Assembly: GCF_022458985.1 (NCBI RefSeq)
Contig: NC_061777.1
Span: forward strand, 13,791,668-13,855,667
Length of the DNA: 64,000 nt
Source: Mugil cephalus
Lineage: Eukaryota; Chordata; Actinopteri; Mugiliformes; Mugilidae
Direction of reading: 5' to 3'
The translations under genes were made by a program, and so were the position numbers. The notes below the pieces were generated by a model, which was given only the letters and a program-made list of their open reading frames with translations, searched no databases and was not told the DNA's origin. Below are positions 46,514-64,000 of this stretch, in pieces (the first letter of the stretch is position 1; every line of letters begins with the position of its first letter).

Positions 46514-46787
46514 CACTATCACAAACAACATACGAATACAACATCTAAAATGACCAAAAGGTTTTGGTTAATACAGCTGAAATTCAGCCTTTTATCAGTA
46601 TTGAGTGTCAGGGATTTATAGTTCATTGTTGCAGCTTTCAAATCCCTGTCAGTGTCGTATTGTTGACAATATAAATCACACATCGACGTGCATATTCACT
46701 TGTTGCTCTCATGCGTTCCTGCCTGTTCTCCTCTCCTGCTCTTCAGCTTTGCTTCAACAACACATGTTGTCTCATTCCAGAAACAAG

Positions 46788-53545: not shown

Positions 53546-56106
53546 ATGATTGGACAGAAAACAATTAACTCGTTTTTTTCGGCAGTCCCGAAAAAGAGGA
53601 GTTCTACGGAGTTAAATGAGACCGAGGAGGATGCGAAGGACACGGTGAGCGTCACTTCTTCTTGAGACAGTAACTTGACCTTAAACGCGCGTGTAGCTTG
53701 TAACGCTAAACACTTTTTTTTCCTGGTATATTTCATTCATTTATTTCGAATTTTGAAGGAGCTGTAGTTTCCCGCGACGCATTCAGCGCGTTCAAGCTGC
53801 GTTCACCAACACCAACATGTTCTTGGATGTTGTTAAACGCGGTGCTCGCAACACGACAATGTGTGTACTGCTTCGCAGACGCTTTCTAAATCCAGTTTCG
53901 CCTCCGGCTGCACGTTGCTTACCAGCTCTGTGTTTCGCTCAATACATTAAAATAATACAGAAGAAGCAGAAGCAGAAGCCCTCTGCGGCGGAGCCGGAGC
54001 CGTCGAGGCCGTCCTCTGCTCCTCTGTCCCCGGAGCAGCTGGACAGGATCGCCCGCAACAAGAGAATCGCGCTGGAGAGACTCGCTTCCGTACAGACCCC
54101 CCCCGGGTTCGGAGAGAGCTGGAGGAAGGCGCTGTCTGCTGAGTTTGGGAAGCCTTATTTCAAACAGGTCAGGGAACCAGTCAGTAAGTTGCACATGGAG
54201 TGTGTGTGTATGTGTTTTGTTTGTTTTTACAAGTTTTAATGAGAGCACGTCTCCGTCACAGCTGATGAACTTTGTGTCTGAGGAGAGGAAACGTCACGTT
54301 GTGTACCCACCCGATGAACATGTCTTTACCTGGACAAAGACGTGTGACATCCGAGATGTAAGTTTTAATTGCGTTGTGCTGGGCGTTGCCTGACATGCGC
54401 AGACTTTGCAAAACGCTAGACAACACAAGTGACTGAAATGGGAGTTGTCAAATTAATAGAAATGTGTATCAGTACAAAACATTACAATTTAATGGCATTA
54501 CAAACCACAGCCTCCAGATGAAAACACACAATTATTTTTCTGAATACAATAACCTCCACAAAGATGATGTATAGTGCAGGACTGTTATATTACAATGCAT
54601 TCATTTTCACTAGTGTACCTATTGAACTAGCAAGTGCGTGTTCAAAGCCTCTAATACAGTCATATGTGTATGTAATATATAGTGTATAGTGTGTTATATT
54701 CAGTTTACAGACACAACAGACATCTAAATCAAGTAATTTGACAATTTTTAACCTTTTTTTTATTTAACATTTATTCCTTCCCAAAACTTAAATATTGCAC
54801 CCTAAATGAATGCAGCAAGTAATGCATGTGATATTTTTGACACAGTAGAAACATTTGGAAAGAGTTTATATAGCCTGCGTACATTTCCTATACAAACAAA
54901 ACCAGTTGTAGTTTTCAAACAACAACAGCGACGCTTAGTGGCAGGAGGTCATTTTTCACTTAATCTATGTATTGATGATTAAAAGTGTGCTGTGTAACGG
55001 TGTCCTTAAATTATTGTTAATTATTTGTCACTGTTTTCTCATCTAAAGATGTGTTTGTAATTCCAGGTCAAAGTGGTGATTCTTGGCCAGGATCCTTACC
55101 ATGGTCCTAACCAGGCCCACGGGTTGTGTTTTAGTGTCAAAAGGCCAGTGCCTCCTCCACCCAGGTTTGAAGCCTTTTGAGTTTCTCAGATAGGAAACAA
55201 CACATGCCACTATTTTTTTTTTATTCTTGGATTGTTTGACTTGACAAGATTAAAACCTCCAACTTGCGGGGTGAATAACATTGAAGATAGTTTCCTGTTA
55301 ACCTGGGTCCTGGCATTTATCTTTATGTTACTTTGATACGTTCCACCACCTGAACACCAAGAACACATGATCATACTTTGCATCTTGCATCCTGGTGCCA
55401 GATGTTCCCCAGAAGTGCAGGATAGACACACAGCCATCCAAATCTAATTGTGCTGTAAAGTCAGTATTTCAATTTAGTTTCTTCAATTTTTATGTTTCCA
55501 GTTTGGAGAACATGTACAAAGAGCTGGTCTCTGACATTGATGGCTTCCAGCACCCTGGACATGGAGATCTGACTGGATGGGCCAAACAAGGTACTTTTTA
55601 AATATAGTCTGCTGAATGTTTACACACAGTTACACAACAAGAGAACTGTCTGACATTAACGAAGCGTCTCTTTTCTCAATCTGTGACTCTGCTCACCAGG
55701 TGTGCTGTTGCTCAATGCTGTGCTGACCGTCCGAGCACACCAGGCCAACTCGCACAAAGACAAAGGCTGGGAGTCCTTCACTGACGCTGTGGTGCAGTGG
55801 CTCAGCAACAACATGGAAGGCCTCGTCTTCATGCTGTGGGGAGCGTACGCTCAGAAGAAAGGAGCTTCTATCAACAGGGTGAGTCCATACACTTGTTAAT
55901 GCAAATTCTTTCAGCTGTGTTTATTATCATGTTTTCATGCTCAGTTTTCACACTCTGTTTTACAGAAACGCCACCATGTGCTGCAAGCTGTGCATCCATC
56001 TCCCCTGTCCGCTCATCGGGGTTTTTTTGGGTGCCAGCATTTCTCAAAGGCCAACGAGCTGCTCAAGAAATCTGGAAAGTCTCCCATTGACTGGAAGGCA
56101 CTTTAA
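53546..56106 (+). CDS. ung: Uracil-DNA glycosylase, nuclear (UNG2) and mitochondrial (UNG1) forms
   Basis: Family 1 glycosylase that removes uracil from DNA to start base-excision repair. UNG2 uses exon 53546-53644 ([11 protein letters not shown], a PCNA-binding PIP box) spliced to 53961. UNG1 starts at 53817 and reads through to 54167 with a basic mitochondrial-type leader. Shared exons: 53961-54167, 54262-54357, 55067-55164, 55502-55590, 55700-55878, 55966-56106. The phases give 302 aa (UNG2) and 317 aa (UNG1). Motifs: water-activating loop [25 protein letters not shown]-intercalation loop [10 protein letters not shown]; an RPA-binding helix-like [14 protein letters not shown] in the shared part. 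The acceptor at 53961 lies inside the UNG1 first exon, the same arrangement as in human. The last exon is duplicated at 60521-60661. Confidence 0.96.
53817..53960 (+). other. ung: UNG1-specific mitochondrial leader exon part
   Basis: In frame with the shared ung exon. The sequence begins [15 protein letters not shown] and continues through [15 protein letters not shown], rich in Arg and hydrophobic residues with no acidic run, as expected for a mitochondrial presequence. A second Met (residue 15) could also initiate. It becomes intron when the nuclear first exon is spliced to 53961. Confidence 0.75.
54440..54640. mobile_element. Partial MITE related to the 46.2-kb element
   Basis: Shares 'ttttcactagtgtacctatt' and the 'gaactagcaagtg' end with the element at 46191-46513. 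Only the right end is recognisable. It lies in a ung intron. Confidence 0.4.
55290..55460. mobile_element. DNA transposon internal fragment in ung intron
   Basis: Contains 'gcatcctggtgccagatgt' then 'tccccagaagtgcagg' and 'cacacagccatccaaat'. I recall these as part of the autonomous relatives of the 19507-19952 MITE. No ends and no coding frame. Confidence 0.45.
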
Positions 56107-57168: not shown

Positions 57169-57660
57169 TCAGCCTGCTCTCAGTCGGAGGGTCAGGTAGA
57201 TGGTGCTGTGCGCCCTCACGTTGTAGTCCGACAGTTTTCCAGCAGACATCTCCCTGTCTTCGTGAATGAGCCTCTGCTGGCTCACCGGTACCCCCTCCCT
57301 CTGCTCCACACTCCGCTTGAAGTCATCCACCGTCTCGTTGGGTTTGATATCGTAGGTGCTCGTCTGCCCCTTCTCGTTCCTGAGGAACACCTGGATGGTA
57401 GGATTGATGGGAGGATTGATGGGAGGAGGCTCGACGATCAGCAGGGAGACATGGGAGCCGGACTGCAAGCCGTAGTCGCACAAAAGTTTGGTGTCGTCAC
57501 TGAGAGTTGTTTTTTTGCCGTTTACAAACACCAACTTCTGTTTGTGGACAGGCACCTTCAGTAGTCTATGGATTTGTATTTTCAGGGATCCAACAGTGTC
57601 CTGTGGGTTCACAACCAGCGGGTGTAATGTCCCATCCATTGTTTTGATGATTAGTTCCAT
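57169..57660 (-). CDS. isg15: ISG15-like ubiquitin-like modifier, copy A (ends LRLRAG)
   Basis: Interferon-stimulated protein with two ubiquitin-like domains, 163 aa, single coding exon. UBL1 spans about residues 1-78. The hinge is a short Pro-rich repeat (EPPPINPPINPT). UBL2 spans about residues 91-163. In the family, the LRLRGG C-terminus is activated by the E1 enzyme and joined to lysines of target proteins. Here the last residues are LRLRAG, because the first Gly codon GGA has become GCA. A 5'UTR intron is predicted, with a good acceptor (57671-57670), but its inferred donor is AT rather than GT at 57774-57773. It converges with ung. The frame is intact, so it may be a non-conjugating form or an early pseudogene. 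Confidence 0.85.
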   Translation of the reverse strand: MELIIKTMDGTLHPLVVNPQDTVGSLKIQIHRLLKVPVHKQKLVFVNGKKTTLSDDTKLLCDYGLQSGSHVSLLIVEPPPINPPINPTIQVFLRNEKGQTSTYDIKPNETVDDFKRSVEQREGVPVSQQRLIHEDREMSAGKLSDYNVRAHSTIYLTLRLRAG

Positions 57661-57865
57661 CTTAACAGTCTGAAAGAGAATTCAAAATATAATTTAAGAT
57701 GCAGCAAAAAGACATCTCTGTTAATTGTCAAATGTTGCTTCATCATTGTTCGTTTTATGAAGAAAGCTTCATATCTTGGGATGATTTCTTGTCCTCCTTT
57801 TTTTTGTTCAGGGATGCCACTTGTCGCGATTCTCAATAGCTATGTGAAAACTTTTAGCTCCTCTG

Positions 57866-57954
57866 TTTATATACAGTCTGACCCAGCTGATTAAAACACC
57901 CTCCCCTTCACTTACGATTCATTTTCCCTATCTGCTTTGATTATTTTCGGTTTC
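57866..57954 (-). promoter_or_regulatory. isg15: isg15 copy A promoter: TATA box and ISRE-like site
   Basis: On the minus strand, GAAACCGAAAA (57944-57954) fits the GAAANNGAAA interferon-stimulated response element core. A TATATAAA box (57866-57873) lies about 70 bp downstream. A weaker GGAAAATGAATC follows the ISRE on its distal side. The arrangement suggests IRF/STAT control, as for ISG15 in other fish. Spacing and orientation match copy C. Confidence 0.7.
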
Positions 57955-58282
57955 TATTCTCCAAACATGACTCCGCTATACGATGCGTGTTTTGATCACG
58001 CAGCAATGCGTCACCACTTAACCGGTTTATTAGGCAGGTGTTGTAGGTGTGGCGGAGGAGAAACAGCTGGGCTGGGACAAGGGACTTTCTTTTTTTAACT
58101 AATCTGTTCAAGTCCAACCATGAACTGTGATTCCGTTTAGCTGCGTTAAGAACTTGTTTAGAGGGAAACAAAACCAAAGCAGAAAATAGTAGCCATGACA
58201 AGGATTTCTTACAATGCAACAAGAAAAACAAAAACATAGAGAAGTATACTGCAAATCAACAGTGGTGGAAGAGATCCTTTAT

Positions 58283-58405
58283 TTACACTGATCAGTCATA
58301 ACATTATGTCCACCTTGCTAATATTGTGTATAGGTCTCTTTTGTGCCTCCAAAACGACTGAGACAGTTGGGAAGCCCTCAGAGGGTTAGTGTCTGTTGTC
58401 TGGAA
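58283..58405. mobile_element. Deleted MITE copy in duplication unit 1
   Basis: Starts 'cagtcataacattatgtcc' and breaks off after 'tgtctgttgtctgg'. The matching element in unit 2 (62862-63180) is some 300 bp longer. The element therefore pre-dates the duplication and was later shortened here. Confidence 0.6.
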
Positions 58406-59189
58406 ATGAAAAATTAATAAATAAAAAATAGGGGGTAGTGCGGTGCCAGTAGTAGCACGAGGACGCTGTGACAACTGTCAACAGAGGAGAGTGATACATG
58501 CGCTGTATAATACTTAGTGTATACAGTCAATGTGTAATACCGGCTCTAGTGCTCATTTGGTATTTGGTCTCGAGGGCCAAATGTAATTACACTGCGGACC
58601 AGAGTTTGACACCTACGGCATAGAAGGTATGCACGTGACGTCACAACTAGCCGAAGTCTCCATGGTTACGGAGCACTGTGTGGCAGAAAGTGACAGATGA
58701 ACATGGAGATGAACAGCATTAGTTTGAATCATAGCCTTTAATGGCGTCTAAGTTGTAAAACTGATTTAAAAAAAGAGCTGTTGTGCGAGTGACTGAACCA
58801 ACAGATTTGAAAAGTAGCCAGATTTACAGGCTCCTGGAAGCCGGAAGTAAATGGATCACTGCATTACGAAGAAACAACTGGAATCTAGGCATATTTAGTG
58901 TCAAGTAATATTAATTCATACTGTATTTTTGATGAAGTTATACCCTAGGTTACTTCTTAAGTTACGTTCTGGAGGGCTGTTAGATAAGTTTATCGACATT
59001 GGTTTTTTTTTGTTTGTTTGTTTTTTTGGCGTAGTTACGGCCAACAGTAACTATTTCAGTTCAATAAATAACCATAAAACAATAAACGGAATATGACCTA
59101 ACCTAACTGACATGACTCAAAACTAGCTTAAGTTAACTGAAACTGAGGCGAATCCACTCTTCCAAATCCATGCTAGTTCATATGGATCA

Positions 59190-59410
59190 TTGTTGAGTCC
59201 AGGCGGAAAAAGCTCTGAAAAAGCTGAACTTAACTTCCGGGTGAGCAGGGAGAAGCAATCGATCTCCCTCTCTATTCATCCAACGTCTAACCAATCAGGT
59301 GACGCTCCATTGGTCATGAGGCGACACCGGCACATAGGACAGATCAGCCATGGCCACCAACACGACTGGTGGATCTTCAGAGAGTACTATTTGCGTTCGT
59401 GAAATTGTGT
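59190..59410. other. CCAAT-containing stretch before isg15 copy B
   Basis: Holds 'aaccaatcaggtgacg' followed by 'ccattggtcatg', CCAAT boxes in opposite orientations about 15 bp apart, then a short 20-codon frame with a good Kozak start at 59350. No known gene recognised. It could be remnant promoter DNA. Confidence 0.3.
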
Positions 59411-59730
59411 AATAGATTTGAGCTGAGCTGAGGGTTTAGGCACAGGAAATGAGAAGAGGCGTGTAAATTCACACCAGAGACTTTTATTTATATTTAATTT
59501 TTTACAATTTCTGGGTAACATGGATTTTTTCACCATAAAAGCACAACATTGATCTCTCGTGTGTATGGAATGACTTTGTTGTCAGCTAAACAAAACACAA
59601 AGCTATTAAGGCGGAATTACACATTGTGGAATGCGTCGATGATTTATATTAAAACTACGAATAAATATAAAATAATAATAATTAAAAAAAAGTATAAAGA
59701 ATTAATCCTGCTGTGTCGTCCAGTATGTCC

Positions 59731-60005
59731 TCAGCCTCCTCTCAGTCGGAGGGTCAGGTAGATGGTGCTGTGCGTCCTCACGTTGTAGTCTGACAGTTTT
59801 CCAGTTGTCATGTCCTTGCCTTCGTGAATGAACCTCTGCTGGCTCACCGGTACCCCCTCCCTCTGCTCTACACTCCGCTTGAAGTCGTTCACCGTCTCGT
59901 TGGGTTTGATATCGTAGGTGCTCGACTTCCCCTTCTCGTTTATGAGGAACACCTGAGTGGGAGGATTGATAGGAGGCTTGATGTAGGAGTCTCGACAATC
60001 ACAAC
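59731..60005 (-). pseudogene. isg15: ISG15-like copy B, truncated second UBL domain (ends LRLRGG)
   Basis: The minus strand reads a hinge remnant (INPPTQVFL) and a complete second ubiquitin-like domain ending LRLRGG then stop, the only copy here with the canonical tail. The first domain, promoter and leader are missing. Similarity stops near 60005, where unrelated DNA begins, and the residual hinge is frameshifted. Downstream DNA (59420-59700) matches the 3' flanks of copies A and C. Best read as a decayed duplicate, though it could donate sequence by gene conversion. Confidence 0.8.
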
Positions 60006-60009
60006 AGAG

Positions 60010-60493
60010 GAGAAACCTTAAGATGGAGGACGTCTCAGGCCTTCAGCCTCTTTTCTCCTGCCTCTTGATTTGGCTGCACATGATTTTGCTGTCTTTGTCT
60101 CTTAGTGCTCTTGCAGCGACTTTTGTGTGTGGGAGGTTTTTGGGACTAGGTAAGACGGGGTACCCTGTACATTTTGGGCACTCACGTAGGTGATTATTGT
60201 TATTCCACTAGGTTTATGGGTTGTGCCACCGCTGTATTGTTTTGGGGAAAGTCTCTTGGTAGACAAGCCAGTTAGGTATTTTTGTTGATTTTCTTTTTCC
60301 AGAGGTAGCTCAGATAGGCCGTCTTTTGTTATATTACTTTCATTTTATTTGGCACAACCTCTTTGTCCCATCCTCCCTCACCTTAGCGTGTTTTCCTTTG
60401 TTACAATAAATCACGCTTGCTCATTTCCACAAGACTTGTTTGTTTACTGGTTGTCGTGTTGTCTGACACCTGGTTTTACCAGGTGGACGTGAC
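60010..60493 (+). mobile_element. Unclassified ~480-bp insert between duplication units
   Basis: This sequence is not found elsewhere in the window and separates the broken copy B from unit 2. It has an AATAAA at about 60406-60411 and ends 'caggtggacgtgaca', which would suit the 3' end of a solo LTR on the plus strand. The 5' edge and a target duplication are not evident, so the class is uncertain. Confidence 0.3.
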
Positions 60494-60520
60494 ACTCAGT
60501 TTTCACACTCTGTTTTACAG

Positions 60521-60661
60521 AATCGCCACCATGTGCTGCAAGCTGTGCATCCATCTCCCCTGTCCGCTCATCAGGGTTTTTTTGGGTGCCAGCATTTCTC
60601 AAAGGCCAACGAGCTGCTCAAAAAATCTGGAAAGTCTCCCATTGACTGGAAGGCACTTTAA
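60521..60661 (+). pseudogene. ung: Duplicated ung terminal exon
   Basis: An exact-length (141-nt) copy of the ung last exon, with the acceptor 'ctgttttacag' intact and the frame open to the same stop ([13 protein letters not shown] ... SPIDWKAL). Two amino-acid changes are visible: the first Lys is Asn, and the Arg after SAH in the DNA-intercalation loop is Gln. It has no upstream ung exons of its own. It could be dead, or could be spliced from the ung penultimate exon (donor at 55879) as an alternative 3' end, with phase 0 matching. Confidence 0.85.
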
Positions 60662-61771
60662 CTTGTTATGTATGTTTGCTTTTCTAATATGTGTTGATTA
60701 AGTACACACCTAAACCATAAGCTTTCTAACTTCCTGTTCCTGTCCTCAGCAATAGTATGTTATGTTCATCTGTTTTAAGTTGAAGAGTTTTTGTTTTATA
60801 CGCTGCCTTTTCCTTGTTCTTCTTCTTTTTTTAAGCCTTTTTGTTCAGACTTGCTTTTGGGATGTATTTTTGTATGATCTGCTGTTGGCAGCTCCATTGT
60901 TGTAAATATGTTTGTTTACTTTTCTGTATTTACTGAAATTTGGGGTCAGTTAAAGTGGTTCCAAAAAGCGGTTGTTTTGATTTCTCTGAGTTCGATTATT
61001 TCCGTCTAATCTGAAACGTTGTGTATGAGGCAATAAGATCTTTTATCCATAGTCCACTGCTGAAAATGATTTTTTTTCTTACTGTGATCCTGGATATATT
61101 GGTAAAATTGATTAACATTTTATTTGTTTAATATTCAGTTCCTGTCTCTGTTCCCCAGTGCTGTGCTGATGTCACTTCCTGTAGTAACTGGAAACAGTTT
61201 AATGAAGATATTGCATAGATGCACTCAAGTTTTAAAAGGAAGTCACACAACACCTGTAAAATGTTGGTCCTGATGAATGTTGATGGTTGACCCAAGACCC
61301 AAGAAACAGAGCTTAAATATGGGTGCAGGAGCAACTTGTGATTTTGATATATTTTTATTTATTTATTTATATTTTTTTACGATGAACTTTACTGGGGATC
61401 TGCTTCAGCACCACCCATTTAAAGTCTCAACGCTACAGTTGTCTTTTTTGTTACATCTTCAGACCTGAAACAGTTCAGCTCCACCCACTGAGCTGAGAGT
61501 TTAAGCACAGGAAATGAGAAGAGGCATGTTAATTCACATCAAAGACTTTTATTTATATTTAATTTTTTACAATTTCTGGGTAACATGGATTTTTCAAAAT
61601 AAAAGCATAACACTGATCTCGTGTGTATGGTATGGCTTTGTTGTCGGCTAAACAAAACGGAATTACACATTGTGGAATGCGTCGATGATTTATATTAAAA
61701 CTACTAATAAAAATAAAATAAAAAAAAAAAGTATAGAGGATTAATTTCCTGGTGCGTCGTCCACTATGTCT

Positions 61772-62236
61772 TCAGCCTCTCAGTCGGATGGTCAGGAAGA
61801 TGGTGCTGTGCGTCCTCACGTTGTAGTCCGACAGTTTTCCAGTTGTCATCTCCTTGCCTTCGTGAATGAGCCTCTGCTGGCTCACCGGTACCCCCTCCCT
61901 CTGCTCCACTCTCCGCTTGAAGTCGTTCACCGTCTCGTTGGGTTTGATATCGTAGCTGCTCGTCTGCCCCTTTTCGTTCCTGAGGAACACCTGGATGGTA
62001 GGAGGCTCGACGATCAGCAGGGAGACATGGGAGCCGGACTGCAAGCCGTAGTAGGACAAAGGTTTGTTGTCGTCACTGAGAGTTTTCGTCTGGCCGATTA
62101 CAAACATCAGCTTCTGTTTGTGGACAGGCACCTTCAGTAGATTATGGATTTGTGTTTTCAGGGATCCAACAGTGTCCTGTGGGTTCACAATCAGCCTGTG
62201 GGACATCCCATCCAGTGTTTTGATGATCAGTTCCAT
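61772..62236 (-). CDS. isg15: ISG15-like ubiquitin-like modifier, copy C (ends LRLRG)
   Basis: A 154-aa protein with two ubiquitin-like domains and a shorter hinge than copy A (VEPPTIQVF). The C-terminus is LRLRG followed directly by TGA. Compared with the LRLRGG of copy B, one GGA codon is missing. The 5'UTR intron is intact: donor CAAG|GTATGA at 62350-62349, acceptor CTTTCAG at 62247-62246, 105 bp. The promoter has TATA and ISRE motifs. This is therefore the copy best equipped for expression, yet it lacks the Gly-Gly used for conjugation in the family. A role as free or extracellular ISG15-like protein, or loss of function, are both possible. Confidence 0.85.
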   Translation of the reverse strand: MELIIKTLDGMSHRLIVNPQDTVGSLKTQIHNLLKVPVHKQKLMFVIGQTKTLSDDNKPLSYYGLQSGSHVSLLIVEPPTIQVFLRNEKGQTSSYDIKPNETVNDFKRRVEQREGVPVSQQRLIHEGKEMTTGKLSDYNVRTHSTIFLTIRLRG

Positions 62237-62439
62237 CTTAACAGTCTGAAAGAGAATTCAAAATATAATTTAAGATGCAACAAAAAGACATCTCTGTTAA
62301 TTGTCAAATGTTGCTTCATCATTGTTCATTTTATGAAGAGAGCTTCATACCTTGGGATGATTTCTTGTCTTCCTTTTTTTGTCAGGGATGCCACTTGTCA
62401 CGATGCTCAATAGCTGTGTGAAAACTTTTAGCTCCTCTA

Positions 62440-62528
62440 TTTATATACAGTCTGACCCAGCTAATCAAAACACCCTCACCTTCATTTAAGATTCGTTTTC
62501 CCTCTCTGCTTTGATTATTTTCGGTTTC
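62440..62528 (-). promoter_or_regulatory. isg15: isg15 copy C promoter: TATA box and ISRE-like site
   Basis: Minus strand GAAACCGAAAA (62518-62528) and a nearby GGGAAAACGAAT (IRF-like) lie upstream of TATATAAA (62440-62447). The second IRF-like site is closer to consensus than in copy A (GGAAAACGAA versus GGAAAATGAA). The predicted first exon is about 60 nt, ending at the 62351 donor border. Confidence 0.7.
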
Positions 62529-63180: not shown

Positions 63181-64000
63181 GGCCTGGCTCTTTATACAAA
63201 ACGTATAGCCATATAAAGCATTTTGCTTATGTTTTGGGGGTTGCATGCCGTAAGACTTTTCAGCGTCTTGTTTTACCTTTAAGGGCTGTATTTCTTAGAC
63301 AAAAAAATAAAATAAATAAATAAAAAATAGGGGGTAGTGCGGTGCCAGTAGTAGCACGAGGACGCTGTGACAACTGTCAACAGAGGAGAGTGATACATGC
63401 GCTGTTTATTACCTAGTATATACAGTCAATGTGTAATACCGGCTCTAGTATTCATTTGGTATTTGGTCTCGAGGGCAAAATGTAATTACACTGCGGACCA
63501 GAGTTTGACACCTACGGCATAGAAGGTATGCACGTGACGTCACAACTAGCCGAAGTCTCCATGGTTACGGAGCACTGTGTGGCAGAAAGTGACAGATGAA
63601 CATGGAGATGAACAGTATTAGTTTGAATCATAGCCTTTAATGGCGTCTAAGTTGCAAAACTGATTTAAAAAATGACGAAGAGCTGTTGTGCGAGTGACTG
63701 AACCAACAGATTTGAAAAGTAGCCAGATTTACAGGCTCCTGGAAGCCGGAAGTAAATGGATCACTGCATTACGAAGAAACAACTGGAATCTAGGCATATT
63801 TAGTGTCAGGTAATATTAATTCATGCTGTATTTTTGATGAAGTTATACCCTAGATTACTTCTTAAGTTACGTTCTGGAGGGCTGTTAGATAAGTTTATCG
63901 ACGTTGTTGTTTTGGCGTAGTTACGGCCAACAGTAACTATTTCAGTTCAATAAATAACCATAAAACAATAAATGGAATATGATCTAACCTAACTGAAATG

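Follow-up and report, generated by a model that had tools for sequence, protein, structure and literature searches.

Two full-length isg15 copies in a 64,000-nucleotide stretch of Mugil cephalus DNA (positions 13,791,668-13,855,667 of contig C8, which is 28.8 Mb long; hereafter the window) end without the C-terminal Gly-Gly, and the question they raise is whether the ISG15 made by this locus functions exclusively in free form, or whether relaxed constraint after duplication is eroding conjugation. Both readings were put forward in a preliminary description of the window, whose account of the tails was exact in protein and in DNA: LRLRAG in copy A, LRLRG in copy C, and LRLRGG in the truncated copy B. 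The loss of Gly-Gly from both full-length copies holds inside the window but not across the locus, where copies D-H lie to the right of the window and four of the seven full-length copies (D, E, G and H) keep LRLRGG as read from the DNA, the remaining copy, F, ending in LRLRAG like A. The locus is therefore a mixture of intact and altered tails, and because four full-length copies in the array carry LRLRGG, potentially conjugatable ISG15 is still encoded here. A locus making only free-acting ISG15, which the tails of both full-length copies in the window had suggested, is refuted at the level of sequence and almost certainly does not exist here, since D, E, G and H sit in the same array with promoter and splice motifs intact; the earlier inference failed because the array runs on past the edge of the window.

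An isg15 array that continues past the window

A protein search of the whole genome (635 Mb in 24 contigs), in which 30 of 30 first-look candidates were scored and 21 matched, found eight isg15 copies. They form a single tandem array on the minus strand (Table 1), and these counts are in principle lower bounds. The remaining 13 of the 21 matches, on contigs C15 and C19, are tandem single-domain sequences with 39-41% identity to the second domain of copy C, and are read as polyubiquitin. Scanning of the right flank, where, as in the rest of the genome, the preliminary description had proposed looking for an isg15 ending in LRLRGG, yielded five further full-length copies on the same strand as A-C, D, E, G and H among them. 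Copies D-H can be aligned with A and C over their full length, and the near end of copy D lies ~0.6 kb beyond the window edge. Past copy H, over sequence reaching 140 kb beyond the right edge of the window, the scan gave a single weak match of 40 residues (E 0.035), which was rejected as an isg15 copy. Similarity between copy B, whose LRLRGG-ending fragment was called at 59731-59952, and the other units stops near position 60001, and B is half a gene, cut short where units join.

The hinge between the two domains comes in two lengths, with 8 extra residues (INPPINP-like, ~57403-57426 in A) in copies A, E and G and without them in C, D, F and H, and hinge type is independent of tail type. Copy B includes a stretch similar to this insert.

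Table 1. Features of the isg15 array, numbered from the first letter of the window; positions above 64000 continue that numbering past its right end.
Feature	Position	Strand	Description
ung last exon	55990-56103	+	
isg15 copy A	57169-57660	-	163 aa; long hinge between two ubiquitin-like domains; ends LRLRAG
Copy A 5'UTR intron donor	57773-57774	-	AAG/ATATGA versus AAG/GTATGA in six other copies (GT to AT)
Copy A ISRE core	57945-57954	-	GAAACCGAAA, 294 bases upstream of ATG
Copy B fragment	59731-59982	-	cut off at the hinge, leaving the second ubiquitin-like domain; ends LRLRGG
ung last-exon copy	60545-60658	+	
isg15 copy C	61772-62236	-	154 aa; hinge short; ends LRLRG, 3 bp lost
Copy C 5'UTR intron donor	62349-62350	-	GT intact (AAG/GTATGA)
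Copy C ISRE core	62519-62528	-	GAAACCGAAA, 292 bases upstream of ATG
Right end of window	63309-64000		repeat unit continuing past the edge
isg15 copy D	64611-65075	-	
ung last-exon copy	68818-68928		
isg15 copy E	69985-70473	-	
isg15 copy F	72856-73320	-	
ung last-exon copy	76231-76341		
isg15 copy G	77306-77794	-	
isg15 copy H	84812-85276	-	

Copies A and C each contain two stretches that match the Pfam ubiquitin family, and copy B contains one. A structural model of copy A has two ubiquitin-like folds (pLDDT 84, pTM 0.48) that match linear di-ubiquitin and ISG15 structures, and the two tandem ubiquitin-like domains expected of ISG15 are thus indicated by sequence and model alike. When this model was used in a fold search, linear ubiquitin complexes came out on top and ISG15-named chains appeared from rank 24 with TM scores of 0.42-0.46, values that arise because the inter-domain angle differs or is poorly predicted; rank 15 was 3rt3, which we take to be ISG15. 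Sequence searches of the PDB with copy A (best 60 of 356 matches) and with its first domain (best 60 of 349) gave ubiquitin or ubiquitin-derived chains and, among the matches listed, no ISG15-named chain, and since those listed are all of ubiquitin type, they cannot tell ISG15 and linear ubiquitin apart. Polyubiquitin, with its near-identical ubiquitin repeats, was rejected as an identity for the array: within each copy the two domains differ, the hinge that links them comes in two lengths, and the repeat arrays on C15 and C19 are separate from it.

Each of the seven full-length copies has the ISRE core GAAACCGAAA at -289 to -296, recognised by the rule GAAANNGAAA, which we take to describe this promoter element, together with a TATA box at a near-constant distance. 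An interferon-response element, as looked for in an ISG15 promoter, is present, and inducibility is predicted. The acceptor of a 5'UTR intron is likewise found in seven of seven full-length copies and its GT donor in six, the exception being A, so that the teleost ISG15 layout of a 5'UTR intron and a single-exon coding sequence is recognisable, with splicing predicted from these motifs. Copy A is probably weakly expressed because its splice donor is gone; were the intron retained, the transcript would gain upstream ATGs, one of them beginning a frame of 31 codons that extends across the main start, which points to weak translation, and the loss of the donor suggests decay.

On the 3' side, copy C alone among the eight has no ATTTA within the 400 bases that follow its stop codon (window 61372-61771).

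The C-terminal LRLRGG of ISG15 is thus missing from A, C and F and present in D, E, G, H and the fragment B. Copies A, C and F are ISG15 paralogues by descent whose role as modifiers is putative, and D, E, G and H, conjugation-competent as judged by their tails, could carry ISGylation.

Origin of the altered tails

The tails of A and C had been attributed to one substitution and one in-frame 3-bp deletion in the same codon, with both reading frames left open. The two kinds of change and the open frames are confirmed, but a shared codon is not for copy C, where the 3-bp loss lies inside the short repeat AGAGGAGGC, five positions of which fit it equally, as expected from short-repeat slippage; copy C would have passed in this way from RGG to RG. 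Copies A and F have an identical GGA-to-GCA change (RGG to RAG) within a short patch, and the rest of the unit tells a different history, with A grouping with E, and F with C and D, in a tree of the 5' part, and A and F joined (88%) in a tree of the tail part. Each segment rejects the tree of the other (AU p = 0.0003 and 0.0007, 5' part versus tail part, with segments picked after the data had been inspected). A custom implementation of PHI-like recombination tests returned p = 0.0005-0.002, with 66 informative sites for the unit as a whole and 39 for the coding sequence. Four of the five sites exclusive to A and F fall within 131 bp (alignment 403-533), the GCA codon included (p = 0.03, for segments likewise picked post hoc), and longest-run permutation tests for a conversion tract were significant in none of 21 pairs after correction. 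Most likely, one G-to-C mutation moved between the two copies by sequence exchange, and we infer gene conversion, as opposed to other types of exchange, to be its most likely form.

Similar tandem copies are prone to misassembly, and an assembly or base-call error somewhere in the array could give altered tails of this kind. Such an error is nevertheless very improbable: the repeat units are only ~87-97% identical to each other and the same GCA stands in two copies with different surroundings, so collapse or mixing of copies is unlikely.

The coincidence of tail losses is also not striking. At least 85 substitutions have occurred in 489 coding columns of the seven copies, which predicts 0.70 replacement hits among the four glycine-defining positions, and the chance of at least one such hit is 0.50 if rates are assumed to be even.

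Predicted effects of the altered tails and constraint on the copies

The statement that Gly-Gly is needed for E1 activation, made in the preliminary description, is too strong for the RAG tail, which retains its terminal glycine. When position 75 of ubiquitin is Ser, Asp, Asn or Gln, its E1 is reported to be able to recognise it, and activation is still possible with some residues other than Gly, alanine not being among the residues named, yet this E1 strongly prefers Gly75, later steps are impaired, and replacement of Gly75 is described as blocking transfer from E2 to E3 (PMC3731359). Together with a published structure in which Uba7 grips both glycines of ISG15 via backbone carbonyls (PMC10409785), the E1 recognition of such variants lends something to the idea that RAG copies are still conjugated, their penultimate alanine being tolerated and perhaps slowing removal by USP18. 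This idea is unlikely given the preference for Gly75 and the block at E2-to-E3 transfer, and in yeast ubiquitin, Gly75 and Gly76 are reported to rank with the positions most sensitive to change (PMC4862753). In NEDD8, double alanine replacement of the glycines reportedly abolished conjugation (PMC7677368), and in tongue sole, where ISG15 is reported as an unconjugated extracellular cytokine, a change of LRGG to LAAG lowered the extracellular cytokine activity (PMC3445607).

By analogy with ubiquitin, NEDD8 and tongue sole ISG15, which are other proteins with other substitutions, the RAG tail is probably a poor modifier, perhaps charged and then stalled, and the RG tail, which lacks one residue, probably does not become attached. 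For the products of copies A, C and F, conjugation would probably be poor or absent, and RAG ISG15 may also be a weaker cytokine. It is very unlikely that the RAG copies act as decoys, in which case F (and formerly A) would be interferon-induced, its RAG product would be charged by E1, stall before E3 and hold Uba7 or E2, and ISGylation by the LRLRGG copies would be dampened, the variant having spread by gene conversion.

The tandem array of eight isg15 copies probably evolves by birth and death, its members being duplicated, exchanging sequence and being lost. On this account isg15 would have duplicated in tandem, with D, E, G and H retaining the LRLRGG end, one RGG-to-RAG change would have passed between A and F by gene conversion, and the altered copies would be under near-neutral decay, to which copy A, with its donor lost, would add weak expression. 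Pooled pN/pS is 0.74 (0.40-1.11 in whole-gene pairwise comparisons), and copy-specific changes, counted with B and all shared sites excluded, comprise 30 replacement and 12 silent changes, in line with the replacement share of ~0.70 expected without selection. A second-domain dN/dS of 3.09 for the pair D-G was discarded because it rests on 1.5 silent changes.

Regardless of these substitutions, the only coding gaps are of 3 and 24 bases, and the seven open frames contain no frame-breaking indel, although such gaps are numerous in flanks that have diverged to a similar degree, against expected numbers of 6.5 at the promoter rate, 9.4 at the 5'UTR rate and 24 at a 3'UTR rate that is inflated by gaps lying partly within T runs. 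Thus, the reading frames of the set have been maintained. This conservation holds for the set; A, C and F singly have too few private changes (1, 10 and 1, respectively) for such a statement, and since the sole private coding change of F is silent, F itself shows no decay. The lack of stop codons, weak evidence at stop fractions of 0.026-0.030, was rejected as proof of selection. The earlier suggestion of relaxed constraint after duplication is therefore borne out in part, by the pooled pN/pS, the private changes and the lost donor of A, but constraint is not absent, as the frames testify. Erosion under relaxed constraint is plausible, and is clearest in copy A.

The maintained frames also bear on a functional split, whereby F and/or C, and perhaps A, would be kept as dedicated non-conjugating ISG15, free within the cell or secreted, and D, E, G and H would be conjugated. 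The absence of frame-breaking gaps from the set, the open frames under the same ISRE core and TATA box, the intact 5'UTR intron signals of F and C, and the unconjugated cytokine reported from tongue sole (PMC3445607) are all consistent with such a split, which is nonetheless rather unlikely in view of the near-neutral substitution pattern, a tail change expected by chance, the lost splice donor of copy A, and the reduced cytokine activity that LAAG also caused in tongue sole (PMC3445607).

The array is a natural set of putative conjugation variants under near-identical promoters in one genome. Should F or C prove to be expressed, the functions of free and conjugated ISG15 could be compared in one animal with no engineering; should both be unexpressed, the array would provide a clear example of birth-and-death in an antiviral modifier family. 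In either case, the locus warns against interpreting a tandem array from a cut window.

Related systems and neighbouring genes

Three ISG15 homologues of cod, which like the copies described here are paralogues within one species, are said to differ in conjugation. In the seabass Lates calcarifer, as in the array, ISG15 has two ubiquitin-like domains, a coding sequence lying entirely in the second exon, a 5'UTR intron of ~100 bp and an ISRE promoter (PMC9680060). The seabass genes ISG15A and ISG15B are reported as neighbours 2.9 kb apart; D, E, G and H resemble ISG15A in having no extension after LRLRGG, whereas the 10-residue extension that follows LRGG in ISG15B is present in none of the copies, and the array further differs from the seabass pair in its eight copies versus two, in three full-length copies without Gly-Gly, and in a copy A without an intron donor (PMC9680060). 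Linked duplicates with unequal fates are also described in Atlantic salmon, with two isg15 genes on chromosome 20 and four on chromosome 24, one per cluster being virus-responsive (PMC12234341), and a recent review gives a single ISG15 homologue for most fish species (PMC13030082).

Duplicated ubiquitin-like modifiers of which some copies lack the diGly motif, and are termed conjugation-deficient, are described among plants as SUMO4 and GSUL2 (PMC6680281). The plant SUMO paralogues are unlike the present copies in belonging to another modifier and another kingdom. Plant SUMO, moreover, is not known to be interferon-controlled. In the literature searched, mostly outside subscription journals, neither a fish ISG15 paralogue ending in RAG or RG nor the string 'LRLRAG' or 'LRAG' was found. 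The type of event is known; an array of eight copies bearing three types of tail is a new form of it.

The isg15 array contains three further copies of the last exon of ung (uracil-DNA glycosylase, identified by its match to PDB chains), and pieces of ung have thus been carried along in the duplication units. To the left of the array, between positions 46605 and 56103 of the window, are matches to USP30, ALKBH2 and, by its tail exon, UNG. The order USP30-ALKBH2-UNG is presumably that of human chromosome 12, and isg15 is here placed alongside.
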